Positions 48,973 to 53,530 of a stretch of DNA of 64,000 bases are shown piece by piece. A program made the translations under genes and the position numbers. Numbering within the stretch: position 1 is the first letter of the stretch; each line of letters starts with the position of its first letter. The notes under the pieces were generated by a model, which searched no databases, was not told the DNA's origin, and saw only the letters and a program-made list of their open reading frames with translations. This stretch comes from Anaerolineae bacterium. Its GTDB lineage: Bacteria > Chloroflexota > Anaerolineae > Anaerolineales > Villigracilaceae. The stretch covers positions 31,248 through 95,247 of the forward strand of contig JAFLCE010000005.1 in assembly GCA_017303655.1 (NCBI GenBank). The letters are read 5' to 3'.

Positions 48973-48989
48973 ATTTCTTCTCACCATCG

Positions 48990-49020
48990 AGACCCATGAC
49001 ACGTGTCATGGGTCTTTTTC
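48990..49020 (+). terminator. Palindromic terminator after coaX
   Basis: A perfect 26-bp palindrome (agacccatgacac and its complement, 48990-49015) is followed by a T-rich run. Its gacccatgac core recurs in the terminator at 51,550. Confidence 0.88.
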
Positions 49021-49047: not shown

Positions 49048-49092
49048 GATGATTTTACGCACTCTTTACATTCCGATTGCAGCCATACAATA
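49048..49092 (+). promoter_or_regulatory. 45-bp shared promoter motif, copy 1
   Basis: The pattern is GATGA-N5-C-R-CACTC-N18-CCATAMAATA, with TACAAT as likely -10 (49086-49091). No sigma70 -35 is present. It precedes the YHYH lipoprotein gene. Confidence 0.8.
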
Positions 49093-49122
49093 ACAACATT
49101 AATTCATCAGAGGAGATTTAAC

Positions 49123-50361
49123 ATGAGCAGGAAAAAATTATTCGTATTATTTGTGATCGTCTGTTTGACATTGGCGGCATGCGCGCCTCCTTCTTCGACT
49201 TCAACTGGGTCAGCCCCATTGAGCGATTCTCAGCCCGTAGCCGATTCGTCCAACCCAACCGCCGTGGAAGATTCCACACATGCAAATGATGGTCATTCGC
49301 ACACCTCTGATGTGGACTTGACCAATCTCGAGGTGGGCGATGGGAAATATTCAACCAGTCCTCAGACCGGGTATGTGTATTCGTGTATGACTTCGTTCAA
49401 CGGCGGCGGCGCGACCGGCACCGGCAACTGGATGAATGGCGACGGCACCTGGGATGCGACCAAGAAAGCCGTGGTGGATGGTTCTGTAACCTGGCCCAGT
49501 AGCTTTACAGTTTCACTTCAAGGTGACCAGCGCGTGTTCACCGGTAATGACTTGCCCGATCATCCCACTGGCAACTTCCCCATTGACCCCAGTGACGATG
49601 CCTATGCAGTGGATCGCAACCCGAATTCCATTCAGGAACAGTCCATTACTTTGAGCTTGCCTACCAACCCAACCGCAGCGACACAACCGAATTGTGTGGG
49701 AGGCGAAGTGGGCATCATGCTCTCGGGCGTGGTCATCTTCAGCGCCTTCGATGCAGAGGGACGCGATGCCGTAGCACATGAAGTGCAGGATGGCTGCGAT
49801 GGACATCCGCAGGTCTCTGGCTTCTATCACTATCACAGCCTGAGTGATTGTATTGAAGATACCTCTACAAGCGGACATTCTTCTTTAGTAGGTTATGCTT
49901 TCGACGGCTATGGAATTTATGGCTACTACGGCGAAGACGGCGTGGAAGTGGTTAACGAAGACCTTGACCAATGCCACGGTCACACACATGGGATCGAATG
50001 GGATGGTCAGATGGTGGAGATGTATCACTACCATGCCACGCATGAATTCCCATATGTGGTCGGTTGTTTTCATGGCGAGCCTGCGGTGCGCGCACTTTCT
50101 GCAGGTGAGGGAATGGGTGGTCAGCAAGGTCAGGGACAGGATCAGCCTGCTGGGCAGACTCAGCCCACAGGTCCGGTTGGAGGCGAGCAGACTGGGCAAG
50201 GCCAGCAGCCTCCGCAGGAAGCTATCACCGCCTGCACAAGCTTATCCGCTGGCGCATCCTGCTCGATCAATACTCCAAATGGAGCTGTGACCGGAACCTG
50301 CGGTACGCCTCCGAACTCGACACAATTGGCGTGTATGCCTGCGGGCGGACCTCCTCCCTAA
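49123..50361 (+). CDS. YHYH-domain lipoprotein
   Basis: This 412-residue exported lipoprotein (lipobox LTLAAC) has a Ser/Thr/His linker and a YHYH domain (PF14240-like) showing FYHYHSLSDC and YHYHATHEFPYVVGCFHG (about residues 230-330), with several cysteines and GHTHG. Histidine density suggests metal binding. The family is uncharacterised. A Gly/Gln/Pro-rich linker (about 335-370) leads to a small C-terminal Cys domain (CTSLSAGASCSINTPNGAVTGTCG). AGAGGAGA precedes the ATG. It is the first of three co-regulated lipoprotein genes sharing the 45-bp promoter motif. Confidence 0.88.
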   Translation: MSRKKLFVLFVIVCLTLAACAPPSSTSTGSAPLSDSQPVADSSNPTAVEDSTHANDGHSHTSDVDLTNLEVGDGKYSTSPQTGYVYSCMTSFNGGGATGTGNWMNGDGTWDATKKAVVDGSVTWPSSFTVSLQGDQRVFTGNDLPDHPTGNFPIDPSDDAYAVDRNPNSIQEQSITLSLPTNPTAATQPNCVGGEVGIMLSGVVIFSAFDAEGRDAVAHEVQDGCDGHPQVSGFYHYHSLSDCIEDTSTSGHSSLVGYAFDGYGIYGYYGEDGVEVVNEDLDQCHGHTHGIEWDGQMVEMYHYHATHEFPYVVGCFHGEPAVRALSAGEGMGGQQGQGQDQPAGQTQPTGPVGGEQTGQGQQPPQEAITACTSLSAGASCSINTPNGAVTGTCGTPPNSTQLACMPAGGPPP

Positions 50362-50368
50362 TTATTTC

Positions 50369-50398
50369 AATGGACTGGTGCAAGCCAGTCCATTTTTT
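50369..50398 (+). terminator. Terminator after the YHYH gene
   Basis: A 10-bp stem aatggactgg (50369-50378) / ccagtccatt (50385-50394) is followed by T6. The palindrome catgacgcgtgtcatg (50402-50417) follows directly. Confidence 0.93.
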
Positions 50399-50455
50399 AT
50401 CCATGACGCGTGTCATGCCGGTTTGTGGTTAATTGCATGGGTGTTAAGGATAGAT

Positions 50456-50500
50456 GATGACTGGGCACACTCTCGATAAAGTTCCCGTACCCATAAAATA
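50456..50500 (+). promoter_or_regulatory. 45-bp shared promoter motif, copy 2
   Basis: The same columns and spacing as copy 1: GATGA, C-A-CACTC, N18, CCATAAAATA; -10 TAAAAT at 50494-50499. It precedes the six-repeat lipoprotein gene with a leader of about 115 nt. Confidence 0.78.
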
Positions 50501-50528
50501 CATTCAAGATCGAACGTAAGGAGAGTAC

Positions 50529-50564
50529 ATGGATAAACAAAAGAGACCAACAACACATAACTAA
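50529..50564 (+). CDS. Putative 11-residue leader peptide
   Basis: AAGGAGAG is followed by an ATG and an 11-codon frame (MDKQKRPTTHN) in the leader of the six-repeat lipoprotein gene. A small hairpin (acgaca/tgtcgt, about 50,568-50,583) follows. This arrangement would suit translational or attenuation control, but it could also be chance. Confidence 0.4.
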   Translation: MDKQKRPTTHN

Positions 50565-50616
50565 CCGGACGACAACTTGTCGTAAAAAATCAACCTATGA
50601 ATAAAAAGGAGTTAAC

Positions 50617-51540
50617 ATGAAAAACAAAAAATTCTTACTTGTATCCATCATTGCCCTGCTCGCCATTCTTTTGAGTGCTTGTGCGGGTGCTGTGACTGAA
50701 ACCTCCGCTCAACTTGCGGATGCCCAAAGTGTAAACGCTCCCGCAGCACCCGGCGTTGAAGCCTCGTTGAGCAACACAAATTCCGAACAGAACGCACAGA
50801 ACGGACGGGGTGGGCGCGGTGAACGCGATCTGACCGCCGCGGCAGAAGCGCTCGGCGTGACCGTGGAAGAACTTCAGGCGGCTTTGCAGGCTTCTATCCA
50901 TGCGGATTGCACGAACCTGACCGATCAAGATATGCAGCCCGGTAATCGCGAAGGCTGCCGACCTGACCTGACCGTTGCCGCTGAAACGTTAGGTGTGACG
51001 GTGGAAGAACTCAAAGCCGCATTGGGCGCTGGTGAGCAGGGTGGGCGTGGTGAACGTGACCTGACCGCTGCTGCAGAAGCGCTCGGCATCACCGTCGAAG
51101 AACTTGAACAGGCGATTGTGGATGCAAAACCTGCCGAGTGTGTGGATGGCGAACGTCCTGAAGGTGTGGATTGCCGCCCTGATATGGAAGCCCTGGCTGA
51201 ATCATTGGGTGTGACCGTGGAAGAACTTGAAGCGGTTATCGGTCGCCGTGGTGGACCGGATCTTGCCGCCGCTGCTGAAACCCTCGGTGTGACCGAAGAA
51301 GAATTACAGCAGGCATTGCAAGATGCGAAACCTGCTGAATGTGCAACTGCAGAGGAAGGCGCACCGAAAGACCCGAACTGCCGTCCTGATTTGGATGCCG
51401 TTGCTGAAACCCTCGGCGTGACCACGGAAGAACTTCAGCAGGCGCTCGGCAAACCTGAAGGCGGGCATGGTGGACCCGGTGGACAGAATGGTGGTCAGCC
51501 CCCCGCAGGTGGCGCACCCGCACCGACGACCCAGCCATAA
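50617..51540 (+). CDS. Six-repeat lipoprotein with inter-repeat Cys pairs
   Basis: This 307-residue exported lipoprotein (lipobox LLSAC) contains six helical repeats of about 20 residues with consensus DLxAAAExLGVTVEELQxAL, starting near residues 71, 116, 150, 188, 213 and 255. After repeats 1, 3 and 5 a loop carries a Cys pair (ADC...EGC, AEC...VDC, AEC...PNC), probably disulfides that staple a superhelix. N- and C-terminal parts are low complexity (Gly/Pro-rich end). The repeat is not one I recognise. AAAAGGAG precedes the ATG. The gene lies between the YHYH and peroxidase genes and shares their promoter motif. Confidence 0.8.
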   Translation: MKNKKFLLVSIIALLAILLSACAGAVTETSAQLADAQSVNAPAAPGVEASLSNTNSEQNAQNGRGGRGERDLTAAAEALGVTVEELQAALQASIHADCTNLTDQDMQPGNREGCRPDLTVAAETLGVTVEELKAALGAGEQGGRGERDLTAAAEALGITVEELEQAIVDAKPAECVDGERPEGVDCRPDMEALAESLGVTVEELEAVIGRRGGPDLAAAAETLGVTEEELQQALQDAKPAECATAEEGAPKDPNCRPDLDAVAETLGVTTEELQQALGKPEGGHGGPGGQNGGQPPAGGAPAPTTQP

Positions 51541-51549
51541 CGTAATACC

Positions 51550-51600
51550 AACAACAACCAGACCCATGACAACCGTCATGGGTCTGGTTGTTGTTTAATG
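51550..51600 (+). terminator. Long terminator after the six-repeat gene
   Basis: A perfect 21-bp stem (51550-51570 with 51575-51595) with loop aacc. The stem core is the same gacccatgac/gtcatgggtc as in the coaX terminator. Confidence 0.85.
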
Positions 51601-51616
51601 ATTTTTCTCAACGAAT

Positions 51617-51661
51617 GATGATTTTACACACTCATTATATATTGTTCATATCCATACAATA
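51617..51661 (+). promoter_or_regulatory. 45-bp shared promoter motif, copy 3
   Basis: GATGATTTTAC-A-CACTC, N18, CCATACAATA; the first 17 and last 10 bases match copy 1 at all but one position. -10 TACAAT is at 51655-51660. It precedes the peroxidase gene. Confidence 0.8.
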
Positions 51662-51700
51662 CCTTTAGAAATTTAAATCAAGTTTGCAAAGGAGAATAAT

Positions 51701-53530
51701 ATGAAAATTGCAGCAAACGTTTTATTACTGGCGCTGAGTGTAACTGCCATGGGCTGCCAGGCGGTTCTACCTCAAACGGTGGATGCTTCTATCACCAGCT
51801 CGAACTATGTTTTGAATGACCCGCAACAAGGTGCAATGAATTTAGACGTTGTGCCATTAGATGGTGTTGGCAATAACCTTGCCAACCCGCAGTGGGGCAG
51901 TGTCAATCAGAATCTATTGCGCCTCTCGCCCGCGGATTATGTCGACGGGATCAAAAGTCCCGCCGGGGCTGATCGTCCCAGTCCGCGCCTGGTCAGCAAT
52001 GCATTTTCTGCCAGCCCTGCAGACGGCACCTTGAATGATCGTGACTTCACGGCATTTGTATACGCCTGGGGTCAGTTCCTTGACCATGATATCGGCTTGA
52101 CCGTTTCCGCCGACCCAAAGGAAGCCTTTCCGGTGATCGTCCCGGCGGGCGATGAATGGTTCGATCCGCAAAGCGCAGGTGACATGACCATTTCGTTTTC
52201 ACGCTCACAATATGACCCCGCCACCGGAACCTCGGCGAACAATCCACGTGAGCAAGTCAACATCATTACCGCCTTTGTAGATGGATCGCAGATCTATGGC
52301 GTAGATGCCGCACGTGCTGCCGCCTTGCGTGAGTTTGTCGGTGGACGTATGAAAGTTAGTGACGGAAACCTGCTGCCCTTCAACACAGAAGGCTTTGAAA
52401 ATGCGAACGATGCCCATCGTGTGGATGACACTCAATTATTTTTGGCAGGCGATGTACGTGCCAATGAAAACCCCGAATTGGCATCTCTGCAAATTCTTTT
52501 TGTACGTGAACATAACCGCATTGCTGATGAAGCTGCACGCCGCCATCCCGATTGGACAGATGAAGAACTGTATCAATTTGCGCGCCGCGTTGTGATCGCG
52601 GAACTCCAAAAGATCACCTATGATGAATTCCTGCCCGCCATTCTCGGTGAGAACGCCATGCCTGCTTATCATGGCTATCAAGCCGATGTAAACCCCGGCA
52701 TTGCCACCGAGTTTTCTACAGGGGCGTTCCGCGTGGGTCACAGCATGTTAGGCGAAGATATCGAATTCTTGGATAACGAAGGCGAAGAGATCTTTGACGC
52801 GATGGCGCTGCGCGACTCCTTCTTTAACCCGGTCGTGATCAGCGACACAGACATTGACCCACTCCTGAAATATCTCGCTTCGGATAATGCCCAGGAGATC
52901 GACACCATGGTTGTTGATGACGTCCGCAACTTCCTCTTTGGCGAACCGGGTCAAGGCGGCTTTGACCTCGCCTCTTTGAACATTCAACGTGGACGCGACC
53001 ACGGCGTTGCAGACTACAATACTGTACGTGAAGCGTACGGATTGGAACGAGTCACCAACTTTGAGCAGATCACATCGGACCCGGCATTGCAGGCGAAGCT
53101 CGCCGCGACCTATGGCAGCGTGGATAACATCGATTTATGGATCGGCGGACTGGCAGAAGATCATTTGCCGAACTCGAGCATGGGTGAAACCTTCACAGCC
53201 ATCTTGGTCGATCAGTTCACTCGTCTGCGCGACGGTGACCGTTTCTGGTATCAATCGTCCCTGCCCAATCGTTTGGTACGAGACATTGAAAATACCAGCC
53301 TGGCAGATATTATTCGCCGCAATACCGAGTTGGCCAAGCTTCAAGAGAATGTTTTCTTCTTCAACGAATCCACAGTGATGATCGACTCGTCTATTGAGCA
53401 GCTACAGGAGCAAGGCACTCAACCTCAAGGTAATAATAGCGACCGGGATAATCCTCCGCCCCCGCCTCCGGGACCAAGACCCGATGGCAGACCACCGCGC
53501 GGTCATCGTGACGGCGAAGGACATCCGTAA
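51701..53530 (+). CDS. Animal-type heme peroxidase lipoprotein
   Basis: This 609-residue exported lipoprotein (lipobox TAMGC) has an animal heme peroxidase domain (PF03098): distal histidine in WGQFLDHDI (about residues 122-130), DGSQIYGVD, LFVREHNRIADE, proximal histidine in FRVGHSM and the LNIQRGRDHG motif. It should oxidise halides or organic substrates with hydrogen peroxide at the cell surface. The tail is Pro/Arg/Asp/Gly-rich (PPPPPPGPRPDGRPPRGH). CAAAGGAGA precedes the ATG. It is the third gene of the co-regulated trio. A perfect GC-rich hairpin follows. Confidence 0.92.
   Translation: MKIAANVLLLALSVTAMGCQAVLPQTVDASITSSNYVLNDPQQGAMNLDVVPLDGVGNNLANPQWGSVNQNLLRLSPADYVDGIKSPAGADRPSPRLVSNAFSASPADGTLNDRDFTAFVYAWGQFLDHDIGLTVSADPKEAFPVIVPAGDEWFDPQSAGDMTISFSRSQYDPATGTSANNPREQVNIITAFVDGSQIYGVDAARAAALREFVGGRMKVSDGNLLPFNTEGFENANDAHRVDDTQLFLAGDVRANENPELASLQILFVREHNRIADEAARRHPDWTDEELYQFARRVVIAELQKITYDEFLPAILGENAMPAYHGYQADVNPGIATEFSTGAFRVGHSMLGEDIEFLDNEGEEIFDAMALRDSFFNPVVISDTDIDPLLKYLASDNAQEIDTMVVDDVRNFLFGEPGQGGFDLASLNIQRGRDHGVADYNTVREAYGLERVTNFEQITSDPALQAKLAATYGSVDNIDLWIGGLAEDHLPNSSMGETFTAILVDQFTRLRDGDRFWYQSSLPNRLVRDIENTSLADIIRRNTELAKLQENVFFFNESTVMIDSSIEQLQEQGTQPQGNNSDRDNPPPPPPGPRPDGRPPRGHRDGEGHP

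Follow-up and report, generated by a model that had tools for sequence, protein, structure and literature searches.

What reads the promoters of three neighbouring genes in an uncultured member of the Chloroflexota, and do these genes belong to a common regulatory system? The genes lie in a stretch of 64,000 nucleotides from an Anaerolineae bacterium of the Villigracilaceae (assembly GCA_017303655.1, contig JAFLCE010000005.1, positions 31,248 to 95,247), called the window below, and encode a YHYH-family lipoprotein, a lipoprotein of six short repeats and an animal-type haem peroxidase, each preceded by the same 45-bp block. Filamentous members of Candidatus Villigracilaceae are described as abundant in wastewater plants (PMC10746286). 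Our analysis indicates that the three promoters are probably targets of one NarL/LuxR-family regulator, whose gene lies with that of a HisKA_3 kinase on another contig of the same genome (G000:C57), and that together they would form an autoregulated envelope regulon of the LiaSR/VraSR/DesKR kind.

Three promoter blocks with upstream palindromes

The metagenome-assembled genome (MAG) to which the window belongs comprises 4,605,709 bases in 172 contigs and is 93.55% complete with 5.8% contamination. The three 45-bp blocks, described earlier as having constant spacing, are exact with no mismatches at 49048-49092, 50456-50500 and 51617-51661, and the expectation from dinucleotide shuffles of the window (n = 100) was 0. 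With up to three mismatches allowed, the whole genome holds three occurrences of the pattern and the reversed control none, which confirms that the motif is not scattered through the genome. No sigma-70-type promoter pair was called on the + strand at the blocks themselves, in agreement with the reported lack of a sigma-70 -35 element. Each block opens with GATGA-N7-CACTC, the putative proximal operator (49048..49064, 50456..50472 and 51617..51633, + strand), assigned from the block scan and register alignment and, for the first copy, also from spacing. Sequence and column conservation place a predicted -10 element at 49086..49091 (TACAAT, YHYH gene), 50494..50499 (TAAAAT, six-repeat gene) and 51655..51660 (TACAAT, peroxidase gene), again on the + strand. 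Across 37 distinct promoters from the window and its relatives the constant columns are TGA at 3-5, CACTC at 13-17 and TA-AAT at 39-44, these promoters having been chosen with the block at no more than 6 of 20 mismatches, a choice that favours those very letters.

The preliminary description was right about the blocks and overlooked a second element, a 16-bp palindrome, CATGAC-N4-GTCATG, that starts 53, 54 and 52 bp upstream of blocks 1, 2 and 3 (at 48995, 50402 and 51565). These candidate distal operators, to which no strand is assigned, read CATGACACGTGTCATG (48995..49010), CATGACGCGTGTCATG (50402..50417) and CATGACAACCGTCATG (51565..51580). The first also lies within the predicted terminator stem (48989-49016) of the upstream pantothenate kinase gene (coaX, product matching PF03309), and the third is part of a long predicted terminator stem (51550-51595), each being one sequence with two likely jobs; the second is separate from the predicted terminator at 50369-50394. 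A weak candidate for a middle operator, supported at group level only, lies 22 bp after distal site 2 (50426..50437, no strand): in the 54-bp class this position gave a register score of 0.64 against a background of 0.24 (standard deviation 0.11).

The genome contains five exact palindromes, compared with 0.27 expected from the base composition of the window, and all five stand at four promoter regions, namely the three of the window and the gap on contig C57 between a gene for a YkcB-type glycosyltransferase and a divergent kinase-regulator operon. The two palindromes in this gap form a pair 32 bp apart, and on its glycosyltransferase side a weak copy of the block (four mismatches) lies 32 and 64 bp on.

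Spacing and register of the two sites

The two elements were combined into one pattern, TGAC-N4-GTCA-N18..48-TGA-N7-CACTC, which allows palindrome-to-block spacings of 30-60. It was found in 32 of 57 genomes of the genus (51 rows) and, family-wide, in 45 of 152 genomes (70 rows), the reversed control matching a single genome. Spacings of 32-33 or 52-54 account for 63 of the 70 family rows; eight genera match the pattern, and 7 of 26 genera do so at these favoured spacings. The exact palindrome by itself is present in 42/57 genus genomes (reversed control, three genomes).

A palindrome with at most one mismatch was found in 45 of 59 regions upstream of effector genes (YkcB 19/28, YHYH 17/17, the Lcl_C lipoproteins 5/6, six-repeat 3/3, peroxidase 1/5), and a proximal block with at most six mismatches in 38 of the 59; some of these regions had been fetched via the motif or palindrome, and protein searches also contributed to the YHYH, Lcl_C, six-repeat and kinase sets. 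The palindrome-to-block distances in the effector regions are close to whole helical turns: 32 bp (three cases), 52 (one), 53 (eight), 54 (25), 64 (one) and 85 (one). The proximal block, which had been defined without knowledge of the palindrome, aligned best with it at offset 0 (score 0.556; next best, 0.394). GATGA-N7-CACTC is in register with the palindrome, and we therefore take it for a second, weaker version of this operator, placed near -42, where it would replace the -35 element. The motif recurs in relatives before the same kinds of gene, which argues for the dedicated co-regulated system proposed earlier.

A stricter pattern run over 84,980 species returned 19 stretches, 17 of them with Chloroflexota titles (one labelled Herpetosiphon), one titled 'uncultured bacterium' and one from a Melainabacteria MAG. 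The last is a 4.8-kb Melainabacteria-binned contig (L204 497, JAPPOW010000062.1) with the pattern at 53-bp spacing and no matching gene after it, attributable to chance, contamination or transfer. Within 420 bases upstream of a YHYH-peroxidase pair from another family of the order (G158), no TGAC-N4-GTCA was found.

A two-component system behind the same operator

At locus L054 the regulator consists of Response_reg and GerE domains (PF00072, E 1.5e-31; PF00196, E 1.2e-19), and the adjoining gene encodes a kinase with HisKA_3 and HATPase_c domains (PF07730, E 6e-17; PF02518, E 2.6e-11). The closest solved structures are, for the regulator and in order, VraR (E 2.8e-49), DevR, NarL and DesR (E 2.4e-36), and for the kinase DesK (catalytic part, E 8e-18) and VraS. 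Seven hydrophobic windows, three of them overlapping, predict about 5-6 membrane segments in the first half of the kinase, where no large outer domain is evident.

The operon carries the operator at its own promoter. In 29 of 31 kinase upstream regions a palindrome with at most one mismatch lies within 110 bp, and TANNNT was found at bases 39-44, counted from 32 bp after the palindrome, in 28 of 29 kinase promoters, the same position as in the effectors. This hexamer usually falls within TGATAAGAT, and the -10 is mostly TAAGAT. In the 17-base second site on the kinase side (n = 29), TGA is in register in 25 and CA in 28, with TCAT as in the palindrome in seven; the block-picked effector sites (n = 38) have TGA in 38 and CAC in 37. 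Kinase and effector promoters therefore have in common the palindrome, a second site with the core TGA-N7-CA and a -10 in the same place. In 28 kinase promoters, aligned to L054 for placement, 3-6 bp separate the end of the -10 from the start codon (near 6560 in L054, for example), and the kinase mRNA is therefore probably leaderless.

Operator and kinase also occur together. Over the 57 genus genomes, the pattern and a kinase of at least 60% identity are both present in 29, the pattern alone in three, the kinase alone in three and neither in 22 (Fisher 1.5e-9). Among the 75 genus palindrome sites listed, at least 28 sit 34-233 bp upstream of a kinase gene, one of these being a 41% paralogue. 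Outside the genus a kinase of 60-67% identity lies beside the operator in 10 of 13 fetched loci; the exceptions are the odd-spaced L243 and L247, and L253, in whose stretch there is no kinase. With the operator in between, the kinase-regulator genes diverge from YHYH in L207, where the kinase is 69% identical, and from Lcl_C in L192 (kinase 48%, regulator 69%) and L196 (kinase 44%, regulator 71%); at many other loci they diverge from YkcB or a GtrA-like gene. Binomial values for the spacing and the kinase promoters are only indicative, because related sequences are not independent.

Two further pairs were seen. L157 5434 (G147:C99) holds a paralogous kinase-regulator pair (kinase 41% identical) with its own upstream CATGAC-N4-GTCATG, and L196 (3568-5198) has, next to the main pair, another regulator-kinase pair that is more distant (41% and 28% identical).

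Points against regulation by this system, and alternative readings

Several observations weigh against the assignment of these promoters to the two-component system. The palindrome alone is unspecific: in 40 further stretches it occurs 43 times, 26 of them within called reading frames (one a doubtful 78-aa frame in the kinase gap). Seven of the 70 family rows are off-spacing, at 36 (six rows, five of them one repeat in G099) or 47 (one row), and genus g23 is represented solely by an odd-spaced row. No palindrome at one mismatch or fewer was found in 14 of the 59 effector regions, the right half of the proximal block agrees with the operator mainly at CA, and the kinase-side second site keeps CAC in 15 of 29 only. 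The Fisher test in part counts sites inside the kinase-YkcB gap, and relatedness, as said, undermines the independence of the sequences. The pattern occurs without a close kinase in G139, G136 and G143 (66-85% complete) and the kinase without the pattern in G117, G031 and G008, while G087 (97% complete) has the promoter block with neither a palindrome at up to two mismatches nor a kinase match. The regulator lies on another contig of a MAG with the contamination given above. Lastly, among the NCBIfam models listed (seven for the kinase, 25 of 125 for the regulator) the best were MctS and MadR, not a LiaS or VraR model, and every listed cut-off was missed; the kinase scored 126.8 bits against MctS (cut-off 700) and 77.3 bits against the LiaS equivalog (cut-off 450). 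With these scores in view, we call the system LiaSR/VraSR/DesKR-like without assigning it to any of the three.

The few genomes with the pattern and no close kinase would suit a different transcription factor that binds the operators, with the kinase-regulator operon merely one of its targets. We consider this rather unlikely. A GAC-N5-GTC site is known for LiaR (PMC7191749). The two-component system is moreover the operator's most frequent fixed neighbour, and no other regulator appeared among the recurrent neighbour clusters annotated, which are part of all such clusters.

It is improbable that an alternative sigma factor of the extracytoplasmic function (ECF) type reads CACTC as -35 and CCATAMAATA as -10, even though the spacing is fixed, a sigma-70 -35 is lacking and few columns are as constant as CACTC and TA-AAT (partly by construction, the block having picked the sites). 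The -10 is housekeeping-like, being TAnAAT at the effectors and mostly TAAGAT at the kinase promoters, which lose CAC in nearly half of cases (kept in 15/29) and keep TGA (25/29). ECF promoters usually have a -35/-10 spacing shorter than the 21 bp between CACTC and TAnAAT, and such a factor would leave the palindromes upstream in helical phase unexplained. Of the two possibilities raised before, an alternative sigma factor or an activator acting at CACTC, the activator is thus the one that the ordinary -10 and the phased palindromes favour.

That one promoter segment was duplicated locally and left the similarity behind, with no shared regulator, can practically be dismissed: blocks 1 and 3 have the extra bases GATGATTTTAC in common and all three blocks are neighbours, but block 2 differs throughout its spacers, and promoters built alike precede unrelated genes at other loci and in other genera as well as the kinase gene on the opposite strand. 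Nor is there more than a negligible chance that the palindromes are only terminator stems of upstream genes, as copies 1 and 3 might suggest, given that copy 2 lies outside its neighbouring predicted terminator, none was called at the pair between the YkcB and kinase genes, and a fixed phase to the promoter is unexpected for terminators.

Proposed mode of action

In the reading that we favour, control by the two-component system, the phosphorylated regulator would bind the strong palindrome CATGAC-N4-GTCATG and spread from it to the in-phase second copy, which is weaker and asymmetric (core TGA-N7-CA; centre about 42 bp before the start). At this second site it would bring housekeeping RNA polymerase to a -10 that lacks a -35. 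Its own kinase-regulator operon would be controlled likewise (autoregulation), as would, in the divergent direction, the YkcB-type glycosyltransferase gene, in some species behind a GtrA gene, or a lipoprotein gene. The computation shows the sites, their spacing and register, the associated genes and the conservation; we infer from the sequences that the regulator binds these sites and activates, that phosphorylation is the switch and that transcription starts 7 bp after the -10. The signal may be the state of the envelope or membrane, the N-terminus of the kinase being mostly hydrophobic. The output would be a coordinated change of the cell surface by the glycosyltransferase and the YHYH or Lcl_C lipoproteins, to which a few species would add the Cys-repeat lipoprotein and the haem peroxidase. 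The peroxide, halide or cross-linking chemistry suggested earlier would be a conjectural part of this change.

Probable target genes and their neighbourhoods

The products of the three window genes are of the kinds described earlier. The first (49123..50361, + strand) is a YHYH-family lipoprotein of 412 aa (PF14240, E 2.3e-18, 67.3 bits, cut-off 25) with a C-terminal module of four cysteines (Cys4; residues ~363-410). The first YHYH motif is kept in 15 and the second in 14 of 15 aligned sequences. No credible solved relative was found (one match, E 1.7), and AlphaFold2 on 15 sequences gave no usable model (mean pLDDT 33.6). The second gene (50617..51540, + strand) encodes a lipoprotein in which Cys residues lie between the six LG[VI]T-x-EEL repeats. 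Its hits to Pfam families of the helix-turn-helix type (4 of 19 at cut-off) and to the NCBIfam model TIGR02675 (above cut-off) were rejected as sums over short repeats, no single stretch passing alone. The third (51701..53530, + strand) encodes a 609-aa animal-type haem peroxidase identified by PF03098 (An_peroxidase, E 3.4e-162, 541 bits, cut-off 25) and by Protein Data Bank (PDB) alignments. It retains FLDHDI, VRANENPE and AFRVGH, the putative haem-ligand segments. All three proteins had been called lipoproteins. The lipoboxes of the YHYH and six-repeat proteins (LAAC and LSAC) are normal; the single Cys of the peroxidase (residue 19) stands in AMGC, which the lipobox pattern used rejects, and its lipoprotein nature is likely but not certain.

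The YkcB-like protein is a GT-C glycosyltransferase with PMT_2 (113 bits, cut-off 26.1) and YkcB_C (77.2 bits, cut-off 27) domains. In a tally of 63 operator occurrences, in which overlapping loci and paired palindromes can count twice, the next gene was YkcB in 28, YHYH in 11, Lcl_C in six, peroxidase in two, six-repeat in one and another in 15; the last group includes several GtrA-like genes before YkcB, lipoproteins and stretches too short to tell. In other genera the operator also precedes unrelated genes, for a lipoprotein with no Pfam match (L244) and an NHL-repeat lipoprotein (L253). In the further stretches L129, L145, L131, L139, L147 and L148 the neighbours of the palindrome are other or unclear; that of L131 (G143) leads to a YkcB-like gene. 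In L129 (3987) and L145 (87) the palindrome lies 27 bp upstream of a gene for a 258-259 aa membrane protein that resembles CbiQ-type transporters by eye only. Direct TTTACA repeats of 11 bp, of the PhoB/WalR type, were noticed by eye in some YHYH and Lcl_C copies and discarded as a candidate, being absent from block 2 and from the YkcB promoters.

The expectation that relatives would conserve the trio was not borne out. Peroxidase orthologues of at least 71% identity are found in 5 of 37 genus genomes including its own (G000, G136, G102, G142 and G126, in the last split over two contigs), and three more have partial matches of 35-41% only. Six-repeat matches occur in 4/57 genomes (one over 51 residues only), YHYH matches in 20/57 (three of them to the shared tail only) and Lcl_C matches in 7/57. 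The trio was seen in the window and, reordered as six-repeat, YHYH and peroxidase, in G136 only; in G137 a YHYH gene is followed by the start of a six-repeat gene at the contig end. An operator of its own stands before the peroxidase gene in the window and in L201; the gene has none where it lies directly after YHYH (G136, G126), one gene further on (G102) or after Lcl_C (G142). Among the neighbourhoods read, L040, L042, L044, L046 and the window have YHYH at a chromosomal position that Lcl_C occupies in L041. The trio is best taken as one local output of a larger regulon, found in several of the family's genera, that usually comprises the two-component system, the YkcB-type glycosyltransferase and YHYH or Lcl_C lipoproteins.

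Other genes recur nearby. One cluster of large membrane proteins, often encoded as tandem pairs, is found repeatedly near two-component/YkcB or Lcl_C loci (L043, L045, L048, L051, L054); the one tested was weakly PMT_2-like, below cut-off. In L050 (10615) and L052 (1653, 2272), from two species, a PEBP-cluster gene lies near the peroxidase (PF01161 in the L050 copy, the one tested), and L052 also has a second YHYH-cluster protein whose RR start looks twin-arginine-like by eye.

A Cys4 module shared by four protein families

A regular expression for the motif PPxxAxx(A)C...C...G[x]C...C.P found 48 distinct copies of the Cys4 module in the examined, regulon-linked loci. They belong to four protein families, at the C-terminus of YHYH, Lcl_C and some peroxidases and inside the YkcB glycosyltransferase. 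The window's peroxidase and that of L050 do not carry it; four of the five other peroxidases read do, C-terminally. In the YkcB of L054 the module starts at residue 314, in a predicted outer loop flanked by one hydrophobic segment that ends at 245 and another that starts at 403. Among 27 aligned copies, the Cys invariance is by construction, because the regular expression requires it; the other columns average 67% identity. AlphaFold2 modelled a small fold of alpha structure and three strands (pLDDT 83.8) for which Foldseek returned nothing (best E 1.1). Sequence comparison gave no match in the PDB, none in Pfam (two copies) and none among plasmids (one copy). As a tentative and rather doubtful extension, this 48-residue module might be a novel surface domain by which the proteins served by a single envelope pathway are tagged; with copies both in these surface proteins and in the predicted outer loop of the co-regulated GT-C enzyme, the enzyme could recognise, cluster with or glycosylate the module's carriers, and the regulon would build a glycosylated, oxidatively cross-linked surface layer in Chloroflexota.

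Comparison with known systems

The kinase is nearest DesK of Bacillus subtilis in its catalytic part, and the regulator matches DesR but is closer to VraR, DevR and NarL. DesR binds tandem sites. No desaturase of the DesKR type was recognised among the neighbours here.

The LiaSR, VraSR and CesSR envelope stress systems of Firmicutes likewise pair a HisKA_3 kinase with a NarL-type regulator, are autoregulated and use inverted-repeat operators. LiaR recognises ATAcGACtcccgGTCtTAT, a GAC-N5-GTC site, and has a secondary site that is weaker (PMC7191749); the two VraR sites are a conserved R1 and an R2 that is less conserved and needs phosphorylation-driven dimers (PMC6612188); and the CesR motif is a 16-bp inverted repeat (PMC4447274). 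The operator reported here, at which binding is predicted, is of the LiaR/VraR kind, an inverted repeat with GAC..GTC half-sites, but reads GAC-N4-GTC rather than ATAcGACtcccgGTCtTAT or TCAGHCTnnAGDCTGA. It differs further in having separate sites 32 or 52-54 bp apart in helical phase. Its proximal site is slightly farther from the start than the VraR/LiaR motifs of pneumococcus and Lactococcus, which lie 32-34 nt upstream (PMC6560143). The targets, a GT-C glycosyltransferase, YHYH and Lcl_C lipoproteins and a peroxidase, are unlike those of the Firmicutes systems, and no LiaF was recognised by eye among the neighbours, no HMM search having been made.

YkcB/GtrA transmembrane glycosylation systems likewise combine PMT_2 and YkcB_C, and a GtrA-family gene precedes YkcB in L153 (PF04138) and, by eye, in several other loci. 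YkcB-type GT-C enzymes with GtrA partners modify cell-wall polymers (PMC8035078, PMC5836110), the function of YkcBC in B. subtilis being given as unknown (PMC8035078). The YkcB described here differs in the Cys4 module of its outer loop. The peroxidase has PF03098 in common with other bacterial animal-type haem peroxidases, its best solved match being 8s6c (named lactoperoxidase, E 1.1e-164); unlike them it is placed in this regulon, with a Cys4 fusion in 4/5 other copies.

Neither this regulon nor the function of a YHYH protein was found described in searches of the open-access literature by title and abstract. For uncultured Chloroflexota, for which these searches returned no described regulon, the analysis supplies a regulator candidate, a rule for the operator and a list of targets, and it places YHYH proteins and the Cys4 module in one probable envelope response together with a glycosyltransferase.

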